31,631 bases of DNA from a virus: positions 1 through 31,631 of the IMG/VR virus record IMGVR_UViG_3300035663_000065; one strand, 5' to 3'. Below the pieces are notes generated by a model. That model was not told the DNA's origin. It saw only the letters and a program-made list of their open reading frames with translations, and searched no databases. A program made the position numbers and the translations under genes. Shown piece after piece: positions 11,153-30,686 of the stretch; position 1 is the first letter of the stretch; each line of letters opens with the position of its first letter.

Positions 11153-11339
11153 CTTTTTGGTTTTGTGCTTCGGCTGCTAGTATCGCCTTAAACGCCATCA
11201 CCTTTTCGCGAGGAGAACTTTTGACGTCCTCTAAAATTTGCATCATTCGCAGAATGCATCGCTCGCGATATGACGCCTGCGTAGGCCATCGTTGTTGTAG
11301 AACGCGAGCCATTAGCCGGTCGTCGTTTTGCTCCTGCAT
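10950..11339 (-). CDS. Putative terminase small subunit
   Basis: A 129-aa, helical, charged protein immediately before the large terminase. It contains ILEDVKSSPREKVMAFKAIL and later a D-R-N-R-F-L-E-V-A-Q-Q-L-G-I segment, a type of ending I associate with small terminase or terminase-adjacent proteins. It would recognise the packaging site and recruit the large subunit. A classical helix-turn-helix is not obvious. The start could be ATG 11339 (28-base overlap with the methyltransferase gene) or ATG 11312, which shares one base with the methyltransferase stop in TAATG. The C-terminal 67 residues are encoded over the terminase N-terminus. Confidence 0.6.
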   Translation of the reverse strand: MQEQNDDRLMARVLQQRWPTQASYRERCILRMMQILEDVKSSPREKVMAFKAILAAEAQNQKDEHTAALQSDRNRFLEVAQQLGIGADFRLVGQEPAGANHVGADGSERRDETAVERYRAQADDEEQGG

Positions 11340-12604
11340 AGCTCAGCTTTCTTGCCGGTGAATGTTTCCCACCGCTTTACAATCACGTCGCAATACTGCG
11401 GGCTAATTTCCATTCCGTAGCATTTGCGGCCTAGTTGCTCGGCGGCAATTAGCGTTGTGCCTGAACCAAGAAAAGGTTCATATACAATATCGCCAGACAA
11501 AGAAAAGTCTGAAATCATTCTTGCGGCTAAACCGACTGGAAATGCAGCTCTGTGCTCAACTGACTCTCCTGTAATTTGAGAGCCAGCACTTTTTATCTGC
11601 CAATAATTCCAACGGCAATCGTTATAAACTTGACTCGTTCTGTATTTCTCGCTATTCGACATTACAAAAACAAATTCGCATCGTCTGGAGTAAATGTTAA
11701 CCTGCGGCAGATTGATTGCGTGACATTTGTCCCAGATTATTGTTTCTTGAACCTTAAACGGATTTTTGTCGCAAAAAACAATTCTACCGTAATCGCAACG
11801 GCTTTTTGCATTATATGCAACGTTCCATGCAACAGCATTGGATTCTTTGTCTGCGAACTGAGCCATAACGCTTAAGATGTCAATGCAAAACTGAAAATAA
11901 TCTTCTTTGCTCAAATTATCGGAGCCTGCATCTTCGTACAACTTAACGCCTTTGGATGTTTGACCTCCTTTCGTATGGATAAAACCATCTGAATGTGAAT
12001 TGCCCTGATTGTAAGGAGGCGAAGTAGCTGCGAGCTGCCATAGATGATTTTGCATGAGGCGTTTAACGTCTTGATTGTTTGTCGAATCACCGCACAACAA
12101 ACGATGCTCATTAAGAATCCACAGGTCGCCCGGTTTCGTAATTGGCTCAACCGGTGGGGCCTGCGGTTCGTCCTCGATAATCTCTTTCGGTTCATCCGGC
12201 AAAACAATCGGCTCAAGCGAGTTCATCATCTGCTTGATTGCTTCGTTTTCAAATTCAATACCGTCAAGCAAATTCTCAAGTTTTGAATTATCTAAACCTG
12301 CCATCGCAGTCAGCGGGTCGAGAGTCGCGAGAATCTTATCCGCTTCCTCTTCGTTCACATCGAGAACCAGAACCGGCACAAGCTCGCCGCCAAGCGTTTC
12401 TGTCCTGAGATGACCATCGAGCAGCATCAGTGAGCCGTCTGGCATTTCGCGAGCGATACAGGCATCGGCGATACCGACCTCGGCCAGAACTCCTCGCAAA
12501 GCGTCAGCCTGCTCCTGAGGATGCGTTCGCCAGTTCTTTGGGTTTGGCCTGAGCTGGCTTGCTGGTACTCGGCGAAGCTCTTTAATTCTGTCTCGAATCT
12601 GCAT
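11312..12604 (-). CDS. ParB-domain DNA methyltransferase (beta-class, SPPY type)
   Basis: A 430-aa protein. Residues 10-100 form a ParB/sulfiredoxin-like nuclease domain (LRPNPKNWRTHP, LLDGHLRTE). Residues 158-425 are an amino-methyltransferase with catalytic motif IV TSPPY at 194-198, then the SAM-binding motif EPFLGSGTT at 376-384. Motif IV before motif I is the beta-class order. SPPY is commoner in N4-cytosine than N6-adenine enzymes, so cytosine N4 methylation is possible but unproven. No restriction enzyme gene is adjacent, so it probably acts as an orphan phage methylase. It is the first gene after the gene-free gap and precedes the terminases. The start ATG has a GGGGG-containing leader. 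Confidence 0.88.
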   Translation of the reverse strand: MQIRDRIKELRRVPASQLRPNPKNWRTHPQEQADALRGVLAEVGIADACIAREMPDGSLMLLDGHLRTETLGGELVPVLVLDVNEEEADKILATLDPLTAMAGLDNSKLENLLDGIEFENEAIKQMMNSLEPIVLPDEPKEIIEDEPQAPPVEPITKPGDLWILNEHRLLCGDSTNNQDVKRLMQNHLWQLAATSPPYNQGNSHSDGFIHTKGGQTSKGVKLYEDAGSDNLSKEDYFQFCIDILSVMAQFADKESNAVAWNVAYNAKSRCDYGRIVFCDKNPFKVQETIIWDKCHAINLPQVNIYSRRCEFVFVMSNSEKYRTSQVYNDCRWNYWQIKSAGSQITGESVEHRAAFPVGLAARMISDFSLSGDIVYEPFLGSGTTLIAAEQLGRKCYGMEISPQYCDVIVKRWETFTGKKAELCRSKTTTG

Positions 12605-20466: not shown

Positions 20467-21036
20467 CTAGCGACTCTTCTCGTCGTGCCAAGTATTTATT
20501 CTGATTTTCATTACCTCAAGGCTGCTTGCGATTTCCTGCCTCAGTCCGTTTGGCATCAGCAGCTCGCACGACTCAAAATAGATTTCACCCGGCTCGAAGT
20601 TGCCGGTAATAATCCAGACCTGAGATTGAGGCATCGCGGCCAGAGCGCGAAGTAGAATCGACTGACCTTGCGATATTTGCTCGCCCGGTCGCTTAAACTC
20701 CAGAAACAGAAAATGGCCGAATCGCTCGTAGACTCCATCGACGTTGCTCGGCAGTCCGCGAGGATTGCTTTTGATGATTCCTTTCAGGAAGCCAAAGTCG
20801 ATATGTTCGACCTTGCGCCGCATCGCCTGAACTGGCTCGGCAATTGCCTGCCTGTCCGGCCAGAGGTCAGCAGGCATTTTCTCATCGCCGATTTGCCGCT
20901 TCGTGTCAAAGTACGCCGCGCGAGTTATTCGCTTCGTCAGGTCAGCCGTATCGAACCAGTCTAAATCTTTGTTATTACCTTCGAGCATGATTGCCAGTCG
21001 CTCCTCGTATAGCTCGCGGATTTCCTGCTCAGTCAT
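20467..21036 (-). CDS. PD-(D/E)XK (VRR-NUC-like) nuclease
   Basis: 189 aa from ATG 21036, chosen because GAGAGG lies 7 bases upstream. A longer frame from 21144 overlaps the preceding gene with no good site. The C-terminal part has the nuclease core: N-V-D-G-V-Y, then L-F-L-E-F-K-R-P-G, then ISQGQSILLRAL, i.e. D...E-x-K...Q, as in VRR-NUC and related phage endonucleases. The N-terminal half is helical and charged. Likely roles are Holliday-junction or flap processing in phage recombination or packaging, or degradation of host DNA. The catalytic motif is seen; the substrate is inference. Confidence 0.65.
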   Translation of the reverse strand: MTEQEIRELYEERLAIMLEGNNKDLDWFDTADLTKRITRAAYFDTKRQIGDEKMPADLWPDRQAIAEPVQAMRRKVEHIDFGFLKGIIKSNPRGLPSNVDGVYERFGHFLFLEFKRPGEQISQGQSILLRALAAMPQSQVWIITGNFEPGEIYFESCELLMPNGLRQEIASSLEVMKIRINTWHDEKSR

Positions 21037-21110
21037 TTCTGTGCCTCTCGCCAGTCGACCACGCTCATTCGCTAACCTCCGCGCCAAATAGGATGTTGTT
21101 ATCGAAAAAA

Positions 21111-21419
21111 TTATTGTCGAGCCTCGACTGTTGCCGTAATCCATCCATGAGATACAGCACGACCTGAGGCCGTGACTGTCAAAGTAGGAAATGCGTCAGT
21201 CAACAAGTCAGCCATTCCTTCCACCGACACCGGAACAAGAAGCGCATCGTTAATCACTTTGTTTATTTTTAGAACATCATAAAACTGCCTGCCATCTGTT
21301 TCAAATACAAACTTGATAGTCATTTCGTCTTTAGCAATGACGCACGTACCCATAAACTCGTCGGTTTCATATCGCCACGTTTGTTTATGTTTTGTTTCAA
21401 TTTCAGGTTGCATATTCAT
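21111..21419 (-). CDS. Hypothetical protein following the DpdA-like gene
   Basis: A 102-aa protein with a beta-rich look (F-V-F-E-T-D-G-R-Q-F-Y-D-V-L) and no recognised motif. It overlaps the end of the DpdA-like gene by 17 bases (stop at 21403), so its translation is coupled to it and it might act with it. A second ATG at 21413 could also start it. The function is unknown. Confidence 0.5.
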   Translation of the reverse strand: MNMQPEIETKHKQTWRYETDEFMGTCVIAKDEMTIKFVFETDGRQFYDVLKINKVINDALLVPVSVEGMADLLTDAFPTLTVTASGRAVSHGWITATVEARQ

Positions 21420-22029
21420 CCTCTCTGTCGAAAAGTGTTGGTTCTGGTTCCCTGTTCAATTCTTTTGCAATATCGTCAAGCATATGGTCGTACATCGCTA
21501 CTCCACTGCCATCGCAAGTATCTGCGCCGATTGATGCAAACAATTTGAATCGTTTAGCCGTATTTACGCGGCCAACATGGACATGAAGCCCTAGCGTTTT
21601 TGCTGTCTTTACAATGTCAATTGCCGCCGATGAATCTTTCCACGGGTCTCCGCCGCCAATAAAGACTGCTTTCATTTCTCCCCACGGTATTTCCAAATCC
21701 TCCATTCCATCCTGCGCAACCAATGCCAACGGCCAGCCTCGCACAATCCGCTCACGATACTTCCATACCTCTAATGTCCTTCGTCCATTGGCTACTATGT
21801 CTGGAACCGTAACAAATTGGCAGCGATGCCGATTTGATTGCTCTCGCTTTAATAACGCTTGAAACTCAGTTGCTTTAAATCCACTGAATGCCCCGTTGTC
21901 AATTGCAAACACTCCTCCGGCGTTTGTGTACCTCGTCAATGGAGTAAGCAATTGGCCTGCAACCAATAAAGGATGCAAACATTTTTTGCGCTCAACGTCC
22001 TTTTGAGATTTGTCTATTAGAAATTGCAT
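21403..22029 (-). CDS. DpdA-like 7-deazaguanine DNA transglycosylase (TGT fold)
   Basis: A 208-aa protein with the motif order of the short DpdA-type (TGT-like) family. F-A-I-D-N-G-A-F carries D44, the counterpart of the base-recognising Asp in TGT. P76-D77 lies in VTVPDIVA, VAQDGME at 104-110 and AVFIGGGDPWK at 121-131. H151-G153-R follows in HVHVGRVN, and D170-T-C-D173-G-S-G is the counterpart of the nucleophile region D-x-x-D-C in TGT. Family members exchange guanine for a 7-deazaguanine in DNA, changing restriction sensitivity. No preQ0 synthesis genes are in the window, so the substrate would come from the host. GGGAG precedes the ATG directly after a small hairpin. Confidence 0.75.
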   Translation of the reverse strand: MQFLIDKSQKDVERKKCLHPLLVAGQLLTPLTRYTNAGGVFAIDNGAFSGFKATEFQALLKREQSNRHRCQFVTVPDIVANGRRTLEVWKYRERIVRGWPLALVAQDGMEDLEIPWGEMKAVFIGGGDPWKDSSAAIDIVKTAKTLGLHVHVGRVNTAKRFKLFASIGADTCDGSGVAMYDHMLDDIAKELNREPEPTLFDREDEYAT

Positions 22030-22068: not shown

Positions 22069-22431
22069 TCAAAATACTTTCTCCGTTACCTGCCAACCGC
22101 CGCCGTTTTTCTTTGCAATCTTTTTCAGCTCGATGCTACGAAAGGTCGCCCAGCTATTCGACTCTGCGGCAACTTTTATTTTCACTTTGCTGTCGTCTTG
22201 CCCCGGTGCTTTCCAAGAGCCTTTGACTTCGTGAAACTCAATTTCGCCGCTAACTAGAAAAACCATGAAGTCCGGCGTGTAGTAAGTATTATCAGCCAGC
22301 CGCAGCTTTACTCGCTCAAAAAAATACTGGTCAACATCATCCCGCAGCCTGAGCATCGTCTCCCATGCTTCTTCGTATTCTGTCTTGCTGCCTTTTTCCC
22401 GCCGCTTGAAATTAAACTTTCTGCGATGCAA
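22069..22431 (-). CDS. Small PD-(D/E)XK endonuclease (DUF1064-like)
   Basis: A 120-aa protein. After a basic N-terminus (MHRRKFNFKRREKGSKTE) a helix precedes the core: Y-Y-T-P-D-F-M-V-F (D54), then E-I-E-F-H-E-V-K-G (E69 to K71, E-x-K form), and a final beta/helix part. This is the layout of DUF1064 and related phage resolvase-like nucleases, which are often found in the replication/recombination segment and serve as Holliday-junction resolvase substitutes. It overlaps the preceding gene by 20 bases. Confidence 0.7.
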   Translation of the reverse strand: MHRRKFNFKRREKGSKTEYEEAWETMLRLRDDVDQYFFERVKLRLADNTYYTPDFMVFLVSGEIEFHEVKGSWKAPGQDDSKVKIKVAAESNSWATFRSIELKKIAKKNGGGWQVTEKVF

Positions 22432-28223: not shown

Positions 28224-29555
28224 TCAACTGAAGCTCGCGATTCTTACTGTCTTGCCGATTGGGCTTTGTTCATAGCTTCCCGGTGGCTGAACCGTCACGC
28301 AGTCGAGCGAGTACCGGCTCGGCCATCGCCCTTCTGAGTCGGTAAACAGGATTACCCCGTCAACGTCTGTCGATTCGACCTCCGATAGCACTGAGCGAAA
28401 GTCTGTGCCGCCTCCGCCCTGAGCCGCAATCGCGACCTCCTCGCCGCTGCTGCGATTCCACTCGTCGCGGCCAGTTACTGCCGTGTCGTGATAGTAAATA
28501 TCAATTTCGCGAATCTCAGGAATCGCCTCGACCAGTTCGCGAGCCATCGATTGCCAGTGGCTGAAATAGCAGATGCAGGAGCCGCTCACGTCGAGGACTA
28601 GAGCCAGACGGAACCCGCTGACCTTGCGGCGGGCTGGCCGGTAGACTCCCTGAGCAATTGAGCGCCGGCTCGGCCTGCTCCAGTCTGCGACTGATTCTCC
28701 GCTTGCCCTCGATGCGACCAGTTCAATGACCACATCCTGCCAGCGACAATCGCTTGCGACGATTAACTCTCCGCTGAGCGACTGCGAGCCGCTGCTTGTC
28801 CCTGCTTGATGCCGAAACGTTTCCGGCGATTTAATCTTCCCCTGCTCGGCTGCGTCCTCGATTGCCTGAGCGACTTCCTCGGCTAGTTCTTCAGGGTCGT
28901 CCTGACCAAGCACTTCAGGAGCGAACTTTTTCGCCAGCGAGCCGGGACAGTGTACGCCATCAGTTACAGAGCCGGGCTGACCGTCAGACTGCTCTCCCGG
29001 CTGATTGCCGTCCTGAGGCTCTGGCTGACCGTCTGGCGAGCTTTCCCCCTGCTGCTCGTCCTGAGACCCGCCCTTCTGCTTGTCGTCGCTCTGGCTCGAT
29101 TCTGGCTTATCCTGCTGCGGCTTGTCTTTTGGCTGCTCGCTGCTCGCTTCGTGCTGGTAGTATTCTTCCCAGCTCAGGCCATCGCTGAGACCGAGTTGAT
29201 TCGGCCAGCATCCATCGGGCGGGAGTTTGTAACCGGCCCTAACGACGAGCGGATTGATTTCGCGGTCCATCGACTTGTTCGCCCTGTCGTGGTCGAGCCA
29301 GCTGCCATCTGCAAATCGCTCATTGTGCCGGAAGCGAACGTGGCAGACCTCATGGACGAGCAGTCCGCAAATCTGGTCGAGGGTCAGAGTCTCGATGTAG
29401 TCTGGATTAACCAGCAGGACGATTCCGTCAGTCGCGGCGGTGCTGACCTGCTTTGTCTCGACGAGCCTCAGGCATCGTATCGCACAGGCATCGGCGACGA
29501 TTGCCGGGTCGGTGCTCATCAGCATTTTGGTAAGGGCGATTTCGGCTTTGTTCAC
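28224..29555 (-). CDS. Metallopeptidase-VWA protein (DUF2201-like), MoxR partner
   Basis: A 443-aa protein starting at GTG 29555, with AAGGAG upstream. The N-terminal metallopeptidase-like domain has HEVCH (H68, E69, H72) in L-L-V-H-E-V-C-H-V-R-F-R-H. A Q/E/D/S/P-rich linker spans about residues 135-205. The C-terminal VWA domain has the metal-binding pattern D322-V-S-G-S, then T384-D385 in GGGGTDF, and D406 in F-T-D-S-E-G. This architecture is known from DUF2201 proteins, which pair with MoxR ATPases. Such pairs act as chaperones for protein maturation or in conflict systems, but the target here is unknown. Confidence 0.82.
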   Translation of the reverse strand: MNKAEIALTKMLMSTDPAIVADACAIRCLRLVETKQVSTAATDGIVLLVNPDYIETLTLDQICGLLVHEVCHVRFRHNERFADGSWLDHDRANKSMDREINPLVVRAGYKLPPDGCWPNQLGLSDGLSWEEYYQHEASSEQPKDKPQQDKPESSQSDDKQKGGSQDEQQGESSPDGQPEPQDGNQPGEQSDGQPGSVTDGVHCPGSLAKKFAPEVLGQDDPEELAEEVAQAIEDAAEQGKIKSPETFRHQAGTSSGSQSLSGELIVASDCRWQDVVIELVASRASGESVADWSRPSRRSIAQGVYRPARRKVSGFRLALVLDVSGSCICYFSHWQSMARELVEAIPEIREIDIYYHDTAVTGRDEWNRSSGEEVAIAAQGGGGTDFRSVLSEVESTDVDGVILFTDSEGRWPSRYSLDCVTVQPPGSYEQSPIGKTVRIASFS

Positions 29556-29708: not shown

Positions 29709-30686
29709 TTACCGGCTGGCGACGATTGCCGCTGCGTGTCGCTTGACGAGCTTGCTGAACTCTTTTTCTTTGAGCAAGCTCGGCTGCTGCTTGGCGACTG
29801 CCTTGAGAAACTGCACTTGATAAGTCCCGTCCATCCCATCGACGAGCCGCATGACCGAATCATCCTGAAGAATCCAGCGAGCTTTAGCCACGGCTGGCAG
29901 TAGCTCGACCAGTTTGCTCATCATTGCCGGGCTGGCTGGCAGGCTGGCGGTCCCGGCGAGAATCGCGTCGATGCTCGGAAGCTGGACGTTGGCTCGTCGC
30001 CATCGGCAGAACGATGCGGCTGCATCAGGTCCGATGATGCCTGCTACGGTCTCCTGCTCTGGCTCGTATGGCAGGAGCCGCGAGAGCCGAGCCCAGTTGC
30101 GAGGAGTCGGCTGATTGAAATCCTGCTTCGCGTCCCACTTGCTGAACATCGCCGGGTTCGATTCGAGGAAAGCCAGCAGGCCAGCATCGGCGAAACTCTG
30201 CTCTTGATACCAGCCCCGCCATTCGGCGAAGTCTGGCTCGATTGTGATGACGATACATCGCTCTCGCAGTGCCGAGCTGAGTCGCGAACATCCGGCTCGG
30301 TCGCTGACCAGATTGCCGGTCGCCATCAGGACCGTTCCCTCTGGCAACTTGTAGTCGCCAATCGCTCCGCCGAGAAACAGCTTGAGCAGCGGACTGGTCA
30401 ACTCCATCGGAGCTTGAGTAATCTCATCGACGTTGAGCAGGCAAGCAGACTCCGGCCAGAAGTTCGGCACGTTCCAGCGAGTGCGACCATTCTCGACAGT
30501 CGGAATTCCGCGAAAGTCTACTGCTTCAAATTCGGCTGGCCTGACCTCGACATATGGCAGGCTTAACTCCTGAGCGAGGATATAGCCGACCGTTGTCTTG
30601 CCGATACCCGGCGAGCCGAGCAGGAGGACAGGCAGACCAGCGGCGGCGGCTTTCTTAACTTCAGCGATTGCGGTAGTGATGTTCAT
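29709..30686 (-). CDS. MoxR-type AAA+ ATPase
   Basis: A 325-aa protein. Walker A is GSPGIGKT (residues 24-31), Walker B L-L-N-V-D-E (83-88), sensor 1 M-A-T-G-N (121-125), and the arginine finger region is L-R-E-R-C (140-144). MoxR ATPases act with VWA-domain partners as chaperones in protein assembly or maturation, and the DUF2201-like gene downstream is the expected partner. The start ATG 30686 has a weak GGAA-containing leader within a repeated CAAACGCA sequence. It is separated from the partner by a terminator and promoter, so the pair can be expressed at different levels. Confidence 0.85.
   Translation of the reverse strand: MNITTAIAEVKKAAAAGLPVLLLGSPGIGKTTVGYILAQELSLPYVEVRPAEFEAVDFRGIPTVENGRTRWNVPNFWPESACLLNVDEITQAPMELTSPLLKLFLGGAIGDYKLPEGTVLMATGNLVSDRAGCSRLSSALRERCIVITIEPDFAEWRGWYQEQSFADAGLLAFLESNPAMFSKWDAKQDFNQPTPRNWARLSRLLPYEPEQETVAGIIGPDAAASFCRWRRANVQLPSIDAILAGTASLPASPAMMSKLVELLPAVAKARWILQDDSVMRLVDGMDGTYQVQFLKAVAKQQPSLLKEKEFSKLVKRHAAAIVASR

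Follow-up and report, generated by a model that had tools for sequence, protein, structure and literature searches.

A compact DpdA-like transglycosylase and a T-fold partner: a probable two-gene DNA-modification cassette in a phage genome fragment

Genes at the locus

The window, meaning the whole stretch of DNA analysed here, is a virus record of 31,631 bases and is probably a fragment of a phage genome. Capsid, portal and terminase genes lie within its first 12 kb, and its last 10 kb carries DNA-processing genes, the recognisable ones all on the minus strand. The genes of concern are the following.

11312-12604, minus strand: N6/N4 DNA methylase, 430 aa, adjoining the terminase gene (window annotation)
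20467..21144, minus strand: 225-aa gene with no family match, just downstream of the companion (context only)
21111..21419, minus strand: T-fold companion, 102 aa (AlphaFold2, Foldseek, DpdA linkage in viral loci)
21403..22029, minus strand: predicted compact DNA-guanine transglycosylase (minimal DpdA, phrog_15826), 208 aa (AlphaFold2, Foldseek against the PDB, BFVD, conservation, neighbours in relatives)
22069..22431, minus strand: TnsA-like or Holliday-junction-resolvase-like nuclease, just upstream of the transglycosylase gene (context, outside the module)

The 208-aa reading frame named by the first-pass annotation is present on the minus strand; it starts with ATG and has GGGAGA upstream. 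The companion gene overlaps its stop. A second ATG of the companion at 21413, with a better-spaced AGAGG, is an alternative start and would give 100 aa. Elsewhere in the window, a VWA/metallopeptidase-like protein (DUF2201) adjoins an AAA ATPase (28224-29555 and 29709-30686, minus strand), and the two look like a chaperone-type pair.

Fold and conserved residues of the compact transglycosylase

The 208-aa protein belongs to phrog_15826 of the PHROGs library (E 2e-37), which is labelled 'unknown function'; Pfam and NCBIfam give nothing useful for it. No tRNA-guanine transglycosylase (TGT) is found by plain phmmer or by a profile search of PDB sequences, and the relation surfaces only by fold search. 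The AlphaFold2 model, made from an alignment with 44 viral relatives, has a pLDDT of 94.8 and a pTM of 0.89. Every one of its 39 best Foldseek matches in the PDB is a tRNA-guanine transglycosylase (best E 6e-5, probability 1.00), with TM-scores of only ∼0.46-0.56 on the query. Matches among viral models (BFVD) include queuine transglycosylases from an archaeal rod-shaped virus, Mycobacterium phage Bella96 and Arthrobacter phage Sonali, as well as proteins of Cellulophaga phage phiST and of Vibrio phage nt-1, a DpdA2 phage. The DpdA2, DpdA3 and DpdA4 subfamilies were reportedly set out by Cui et al. in 2023 (as cited in PMC12783734). As modelled, the protein is a compact enzyme of the TGT fold, made of barrel elements only and with no extra domain, and the TGT-type motifs first noticed in the sequence are borne out by both conservation and fold.

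Among the BFVD models the closest in fold (TM 0.74 on the query) is A0A0F7L9Z1, from an uncultured marine virus. With its 499 aa, it is possibly a compact enzyme fused to another domain.

Comparison of 45 sequences, the window protein and its viral relatives, shows D77, Q106, G125-G126, K131, H151 and D173 to be invariant. D44 is kept in 44 and is E in the remaining one, and D170 is H in six. Of the active-site residues proposed at the outset, D44 and D173 hold up and D170 does not; judged by conservation, D173 is the nucleophile candidate and D170 appears not to be essential. Candidate catalytic or base-binding residues are D44, D77, Q106, G125-G126, H151 and D173. On the basis of motifs and of what is generally known of TGT, all of these except H151 would correspond to D102, D156, Q203, G229-G230 and D280 of that enzyme; hhalign backs only the D44-to-G126 part of the mapping, and weakly. 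The features that place the protein among DpdA-like enzymes are its TGT-type fold, its conserved aspartates and the absence of a tRNA-binding zinc domain.

A family apart from the larger DpdA

The compact proteins of Mycobacterium, Arthrobacter and Erythrobacter phages are all assigned to phrog_15826, and relatives of the compact enzyme are encoded in 480 viral stretches picked up with the first alignment. The larger DpdA proteins belong elsewhere, those of phages phiG7 and Sonali to phrog_887 and phrog_7068. Alignment of the compact enzyme to the larger DpdA with hhalign gives an E/P of 0.0076 and a probability of 5%, with the N-terminal motifs in register and the D173 region missed. Neither this comparison nor that with a planctomycete TGT is significant (P about 0.01, D173 region unaligned), a global hhalign run yields no useful alignment, and the DpdA of the bacterial Dpd system in PADLOC does not match the 208-aa protein. 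In our reading phrog_15826 is a compact branch of the phage DNA-guanine transglycosylases, apart from the larger phage DpdA. Actinobacteriophage annotators already name some members 'DpdA-like tRNA-guanine transglycosylase', and the DpdA-like idea is therefore not new. The name 'DarB-like antirestriction' carried by an Erythrobacter phage relative is taken as a mis-annotation.

Compact and larger enzymes occur together in four named phages: phiG7, SHIN8, Vibrio R29Z and Sonali. Two of these are Seuratvirus phages, phiG7 from China and SHIN8 from Japan; the same frameshift splits the compact gene in both, and the larger DpdA is intact. The split gene is either a pseudogene or a programmed frameshift.

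L008 13244-13836 and L011 5001-5593: frameshift-split compact gene of phiG7 and SHIN8

These two phages would fit a compact protein that is an accessory paralogue of the larger DpdA, or one in decay, and that a phage with both can spare. We think this very unlikely as a general account, since 51 of 56 clusters of relatives (see below), the window included, have no larger DpdA in the flanks examined, and these show an open frame with the active-site residues conserved.

Gene neighbourhood in viral relatives

The neighbourhood of the compact gene was surveyed in a sample made up of the best 80 of the 480 stretches together with named phages; its 94 loci (numbered with the prefix L) reduce to 56 clusters at 90% identity. 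A gene for QueC, QueD, QueE, YhhQ or a QueF-like protein is directly adjacent on the same strand in 28 of the 56, or in 31 when the window-type companion is counted. The clusters with such a neighbour have no larger DpdA in their flanks; five other clusters do. About 20 of the 56 have no 7-deazaguanine gene within the flanks examined. One locus (L103) has QueD, the compact gene, QueE, QueC and FolE in a single run, with no other transglycosylase within the 12.5 kb examined, and two more (L050, L051) have the order QueD-compact-QueC-QueE. Mycobacterium cluster P phages and Rhodococcus phage ReqiPine5 show YhhQ-compact, and the cultured Arthrobacter phage Aoka has YhhQ, then QueF, which passes the PF14489 cut-off, then the compact gene. 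YhhQ is the preQ0 transporter, and mycobacteria have no queuosine pathway (PMC6884629).

In a maximum-likelihood tree of the compact proteins the type of neighbour has switched repeatedly. The strongly supported branches force at least four changes for QueF, three each for QueD and YhhQ, and two for QueC, which argues that the link to 7-deazaguanine is not one inherited accident. The use of 7-deazaguanines, suggested initially from motifs, thus finds support in the relatives. With adjacency in half of the clusters and no larger DpdA near those genes, a minimal DNA-guanine transglycosylase is the best reading of the compact protein. The link to synthesis genes holds for the family; at the window itself the 7-deazaguanine link consists of the T-fold companion only.

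In 24 or more loci, L067, L071, L090 and L102 among them, QueC alone lies directly upstream of the compact gene, and the flanks examined contain neither QueD nor QueE nor FolE. This arrangement may mean that 7-carboxy-7-deazaguanine of the host is used, or that QueC has changed.

A gene of the nucleoside 2-deoxyribosyltransferase family adjoins the compact gene in four clusters and is possibly a further part of the pathway.

L029 1033-1503, L030 3374-3820, L044 3494-3916 and L053 3409-3822: nucleoside 2-deoxyribosyltransferase-family gene (PF05014 in L029, L044 and L053; L030 judged by sequence)

This last gene could also be read as a sign that the substrate of the compact enzyme is host or phage tRNA, or free nucleosides, rather than DNA, the cassette serving to tune tRNA queuosine. 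The fold is, after all, that of a tRNA-guanine transglycosylase, and a boost of tRNA queuosine has been discussed as the role of some phage preQ0 genes (PMC6884629). A length of 208 aa, however, leaves no room for the zinc-binding tRNA domain, the compact gene is surrounded by DNA-processing genes, the named viral fold matches are mostly phage or archaeal-virus queuine transglycosylases of the DpdA kind, and the putative host has its own TGT. Action on tRNA or free nucleosides is thus judged improbable, and DNA is retained as the likely substrate of the compact enzyme.

The T-fold companion

The 102-aa companion is recognised by no sequence library; Pfam and NCBIfam give nothing useful. An AlphaFold2 model from 11 sequences (pLDDT 87.8) has the order strands-helix-helix-strands, which is that of the T-fold. 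Each of its 50 best Foldseek matches in the PDB is either GTP cyclohydrolase I or archaeosine synthase QueF-Like, with a probability of 1.00 and a best E of only 2.6e-3. C26, D31, E67 and H91-G92 are invariant, the first three having been checked in 11 relatives. C26 and D31 stand at the end of a strand and before the next strand, as do C21 and D28 of QueF-Like, with a spacing of 5 vs 7. By sequence, the window-type companion does not match QueF or QueF-Like (E above 4). Since it keeps the Cys, Asp and Glu but is not a QueF by sequence, it is called here a T-fold partner, probably QueF-like. The companion was also considered as a degenerate QueD, an idea dropped because the HxH zinc motif is absent and QueF-Like is the better fit.

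Relatives of the companion were found at 12 viral loci, and in 10 of these a DpdA gene is next door or one gene away (compact in six, larger in four). The compact gene is beside the companion relative in 6 of the 12, with one gene between in L108. A larger DpdA is beside or close to it in L109, L110 and L118, and L114 has the run QueE-companion-QueC-DpdA with a larger DpdA. The remaining two loci are one cut at a contig end and one without DpdA.

In sister loci (L002, L042, L095, L072, L097, L120) a gene for an 82-86-aa protein lies directly beside the compact gene. A profile of four of these sister companions has archaeosine synthase QueF-Like as its only sensible PDB match (E 0.0013), with Cys21 and Asp28 of QueF-Like aligned. 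A first search with three sequences found two loci of this type and a better alignment found 11, four of which had seeded that scan; among the 11, the compact gene is directly upstream in nine and a larger DpdA in one.

These linkages indicate that the companion is a genuine partner of the compact transglycosylase, as the first-pass annotation had surmised for this overlapping gene. Our best guess, based on the modelled fold, is that its putative reaction is a modification of preQ0. Some T-fold proteins are regulators and not enzymes, and the companion might instead be a non-catalytic helper, a subunit or a base carrier, with the compact protein inserting unmodified preQ0. The want of a QueF sequence match, the shorter spacing from C to D and the equal Foldseek rating of GTP cyclohydrolase I and QueF-Like would agree with such a role. 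Against it, C26, D31 and E67 are invariant in the 11 relatives, and sister phages have true QueF-like genes at the companion's place. A helper role is possible but doubtful, and a QueF-like partner that acts on preQ0 is preferred.

Source of the base

QueC, QueD, QueE, FolE, YhhQ and a larger DpdA were not found within the 31.6 kb window, and no preQ0 genes occur in the 32, 60 and 53 kb records of three relatives; G001 alone among the three has structural genes in common with the window. The initial description of a stand-alone enzyme applies within the window; the window is probably incomplete, and some relatives pair the compact gene with a larger DpdA. Among 84,980 bacterial and archaeal genomes a single relative was detected, at 65% identity, on a contig of a Planctomycetaceae MAG, a number explained in part by the single search pattern used. 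The contig could be viral and have joined the MAG in binning. Since this MAG, from a host-like planctomycete, encodes QueC, QueD and two TGTs, supply of preQ0 by the host, as suggested at first, is plausible; preQ0 genes could also lie in the missing part of the phage genome.

GATC and restriction

The window contains no GATC where 160 are expected, which confirms an absence noted earlier. GCGC is also low, 73 vs 177 expected. The combination of GATC loss, the methylase and the transglycosylase had been put forward as layered anti-restriction. This was dropped: G001, the closest relative, which has a transglycosylase 73% identical to that of the window and shares its terminase and portal, has 258 GATC vs 253 expected, and GATC loss is therefore not a family feature. 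The preferred view is that the window phage acquired this loss as a separate adaptation. The methylase has no counterpart in G001 at 1e-5.

Proposed cassette and significance

It is proposed, with a probability of about 0.78, that the window carries a two-gene phage DNA-modification cassette consisting of a minimal DpdA and a QueF-like T-fold partner acting with preQ0. The predicted folds, the conservation and the gene linkage are the observations behind this proposal. The minimal DpdA, whose TGT barrel lacks the tRNA-binding zinc domain, would swap guanine in phage DNA for a free 7-deazaguanine base, most likely preQ0, drawn from the host queuosine pathway or made by phage genes that lie outside the fragment. 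By analogy with the biochemistry of TGT, DpdA and QueF-Like (PMC6884629 and general knowledge), preQ0 would sit between D44, D77, Q106 and the G125-G126 loop; D173 would attack C1' of deoxyguanosine in phage DNA to form a covalent intermediate, and guanine would leave and preQ0 enter. The T-fold partner would then alter the preQ0 nitrile, either as the free base or once in DNA, and its product might be an archaeosine-, preQ1- or other 7-substituted deazaguanine. Such a base may protect the phage DNA from restriction enzymes.

A broader hypothesis is that a widespread class of minimal transglycosylases, with hundreds of viral loci, operates by salvage, in cassettes that add a transporter or a finishing enzyme of the T-fold, and that the window-type companion performs an undescribed reaction on preQ0 or DNA-preQ0 which gives a new 7-deazaguanine base in phage DNA. 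This is speculative, and we regard it as rather unlikely in full.

The DpdA-like reading made at the start is right in kind, and the T-fold partner goes beyond what was then guessed. A role is proposed for 'unknown function' PHROGs, phrog_15826 and, in sister phages, phrog_37496. The compact enzyme is roughly the smallest predicted DNA-guanine transglycosylase seen in this analysis. The results suggest that in many phages two or three genes suffice to modify the DNA, the queuosine precursor being salvaged from the host. As the cultured Arthrobacter phage Aoka and Mycobacterium cluster P phages carry the cassette, the proposal is directly testable.

Comparison with known systems

The compact family shares with phage DpdA of the 9g, CAjan and Sonali type (phrog_887, phrog_7068) the TGT barrel, the D-x-G-A-F motif, the histidine before the nucleophile region and the association with preQ0 genes. 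It differs in its length, ∼200 aa vs ∼300 aa, in its separate PHROG, with similarity near the detection limit, and in having QDG in place of the H-x-G-E-D stretch. Unlike those genes, the compact gene often stands beside YhhQ or a T-fold gene, and it sometimes co-occurs with a larger DpdA. With the bacterial Dpd system of PADLOC, whose DpdA does not match, the same reaction class is expected.

Phages with a stand-alone DpdA form group 3 of Hutinet et al. 2019, which includes Orion and 7-11 and for which host supply was proposed; Mycobacterium phage Orion, with a lone DpdA, showed no modification (PMC6884629). These phages and the window are alike in having a transglycosylase without preQ0 synthesis genes. 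The window differs from them in its T-fold companion, and its relatives have adjacent preQ0 genes or a transporter. The 'DpdA-like tRNA-guanine transglycosylase' of Mycobacterium cluster P and Arthrobacter phages belongs to the same phrog_15826 and is 32-43% identical to the window protein; the name is the annotators' own, and we found no test of it. Archaeosine synthase QueF-Like (5jyx/5k0p) resembles the companion in size, T-fold and the places of the Cys and Asp. The window companion matches it by fold only, whereas the sister-phage companions match it by sequence.
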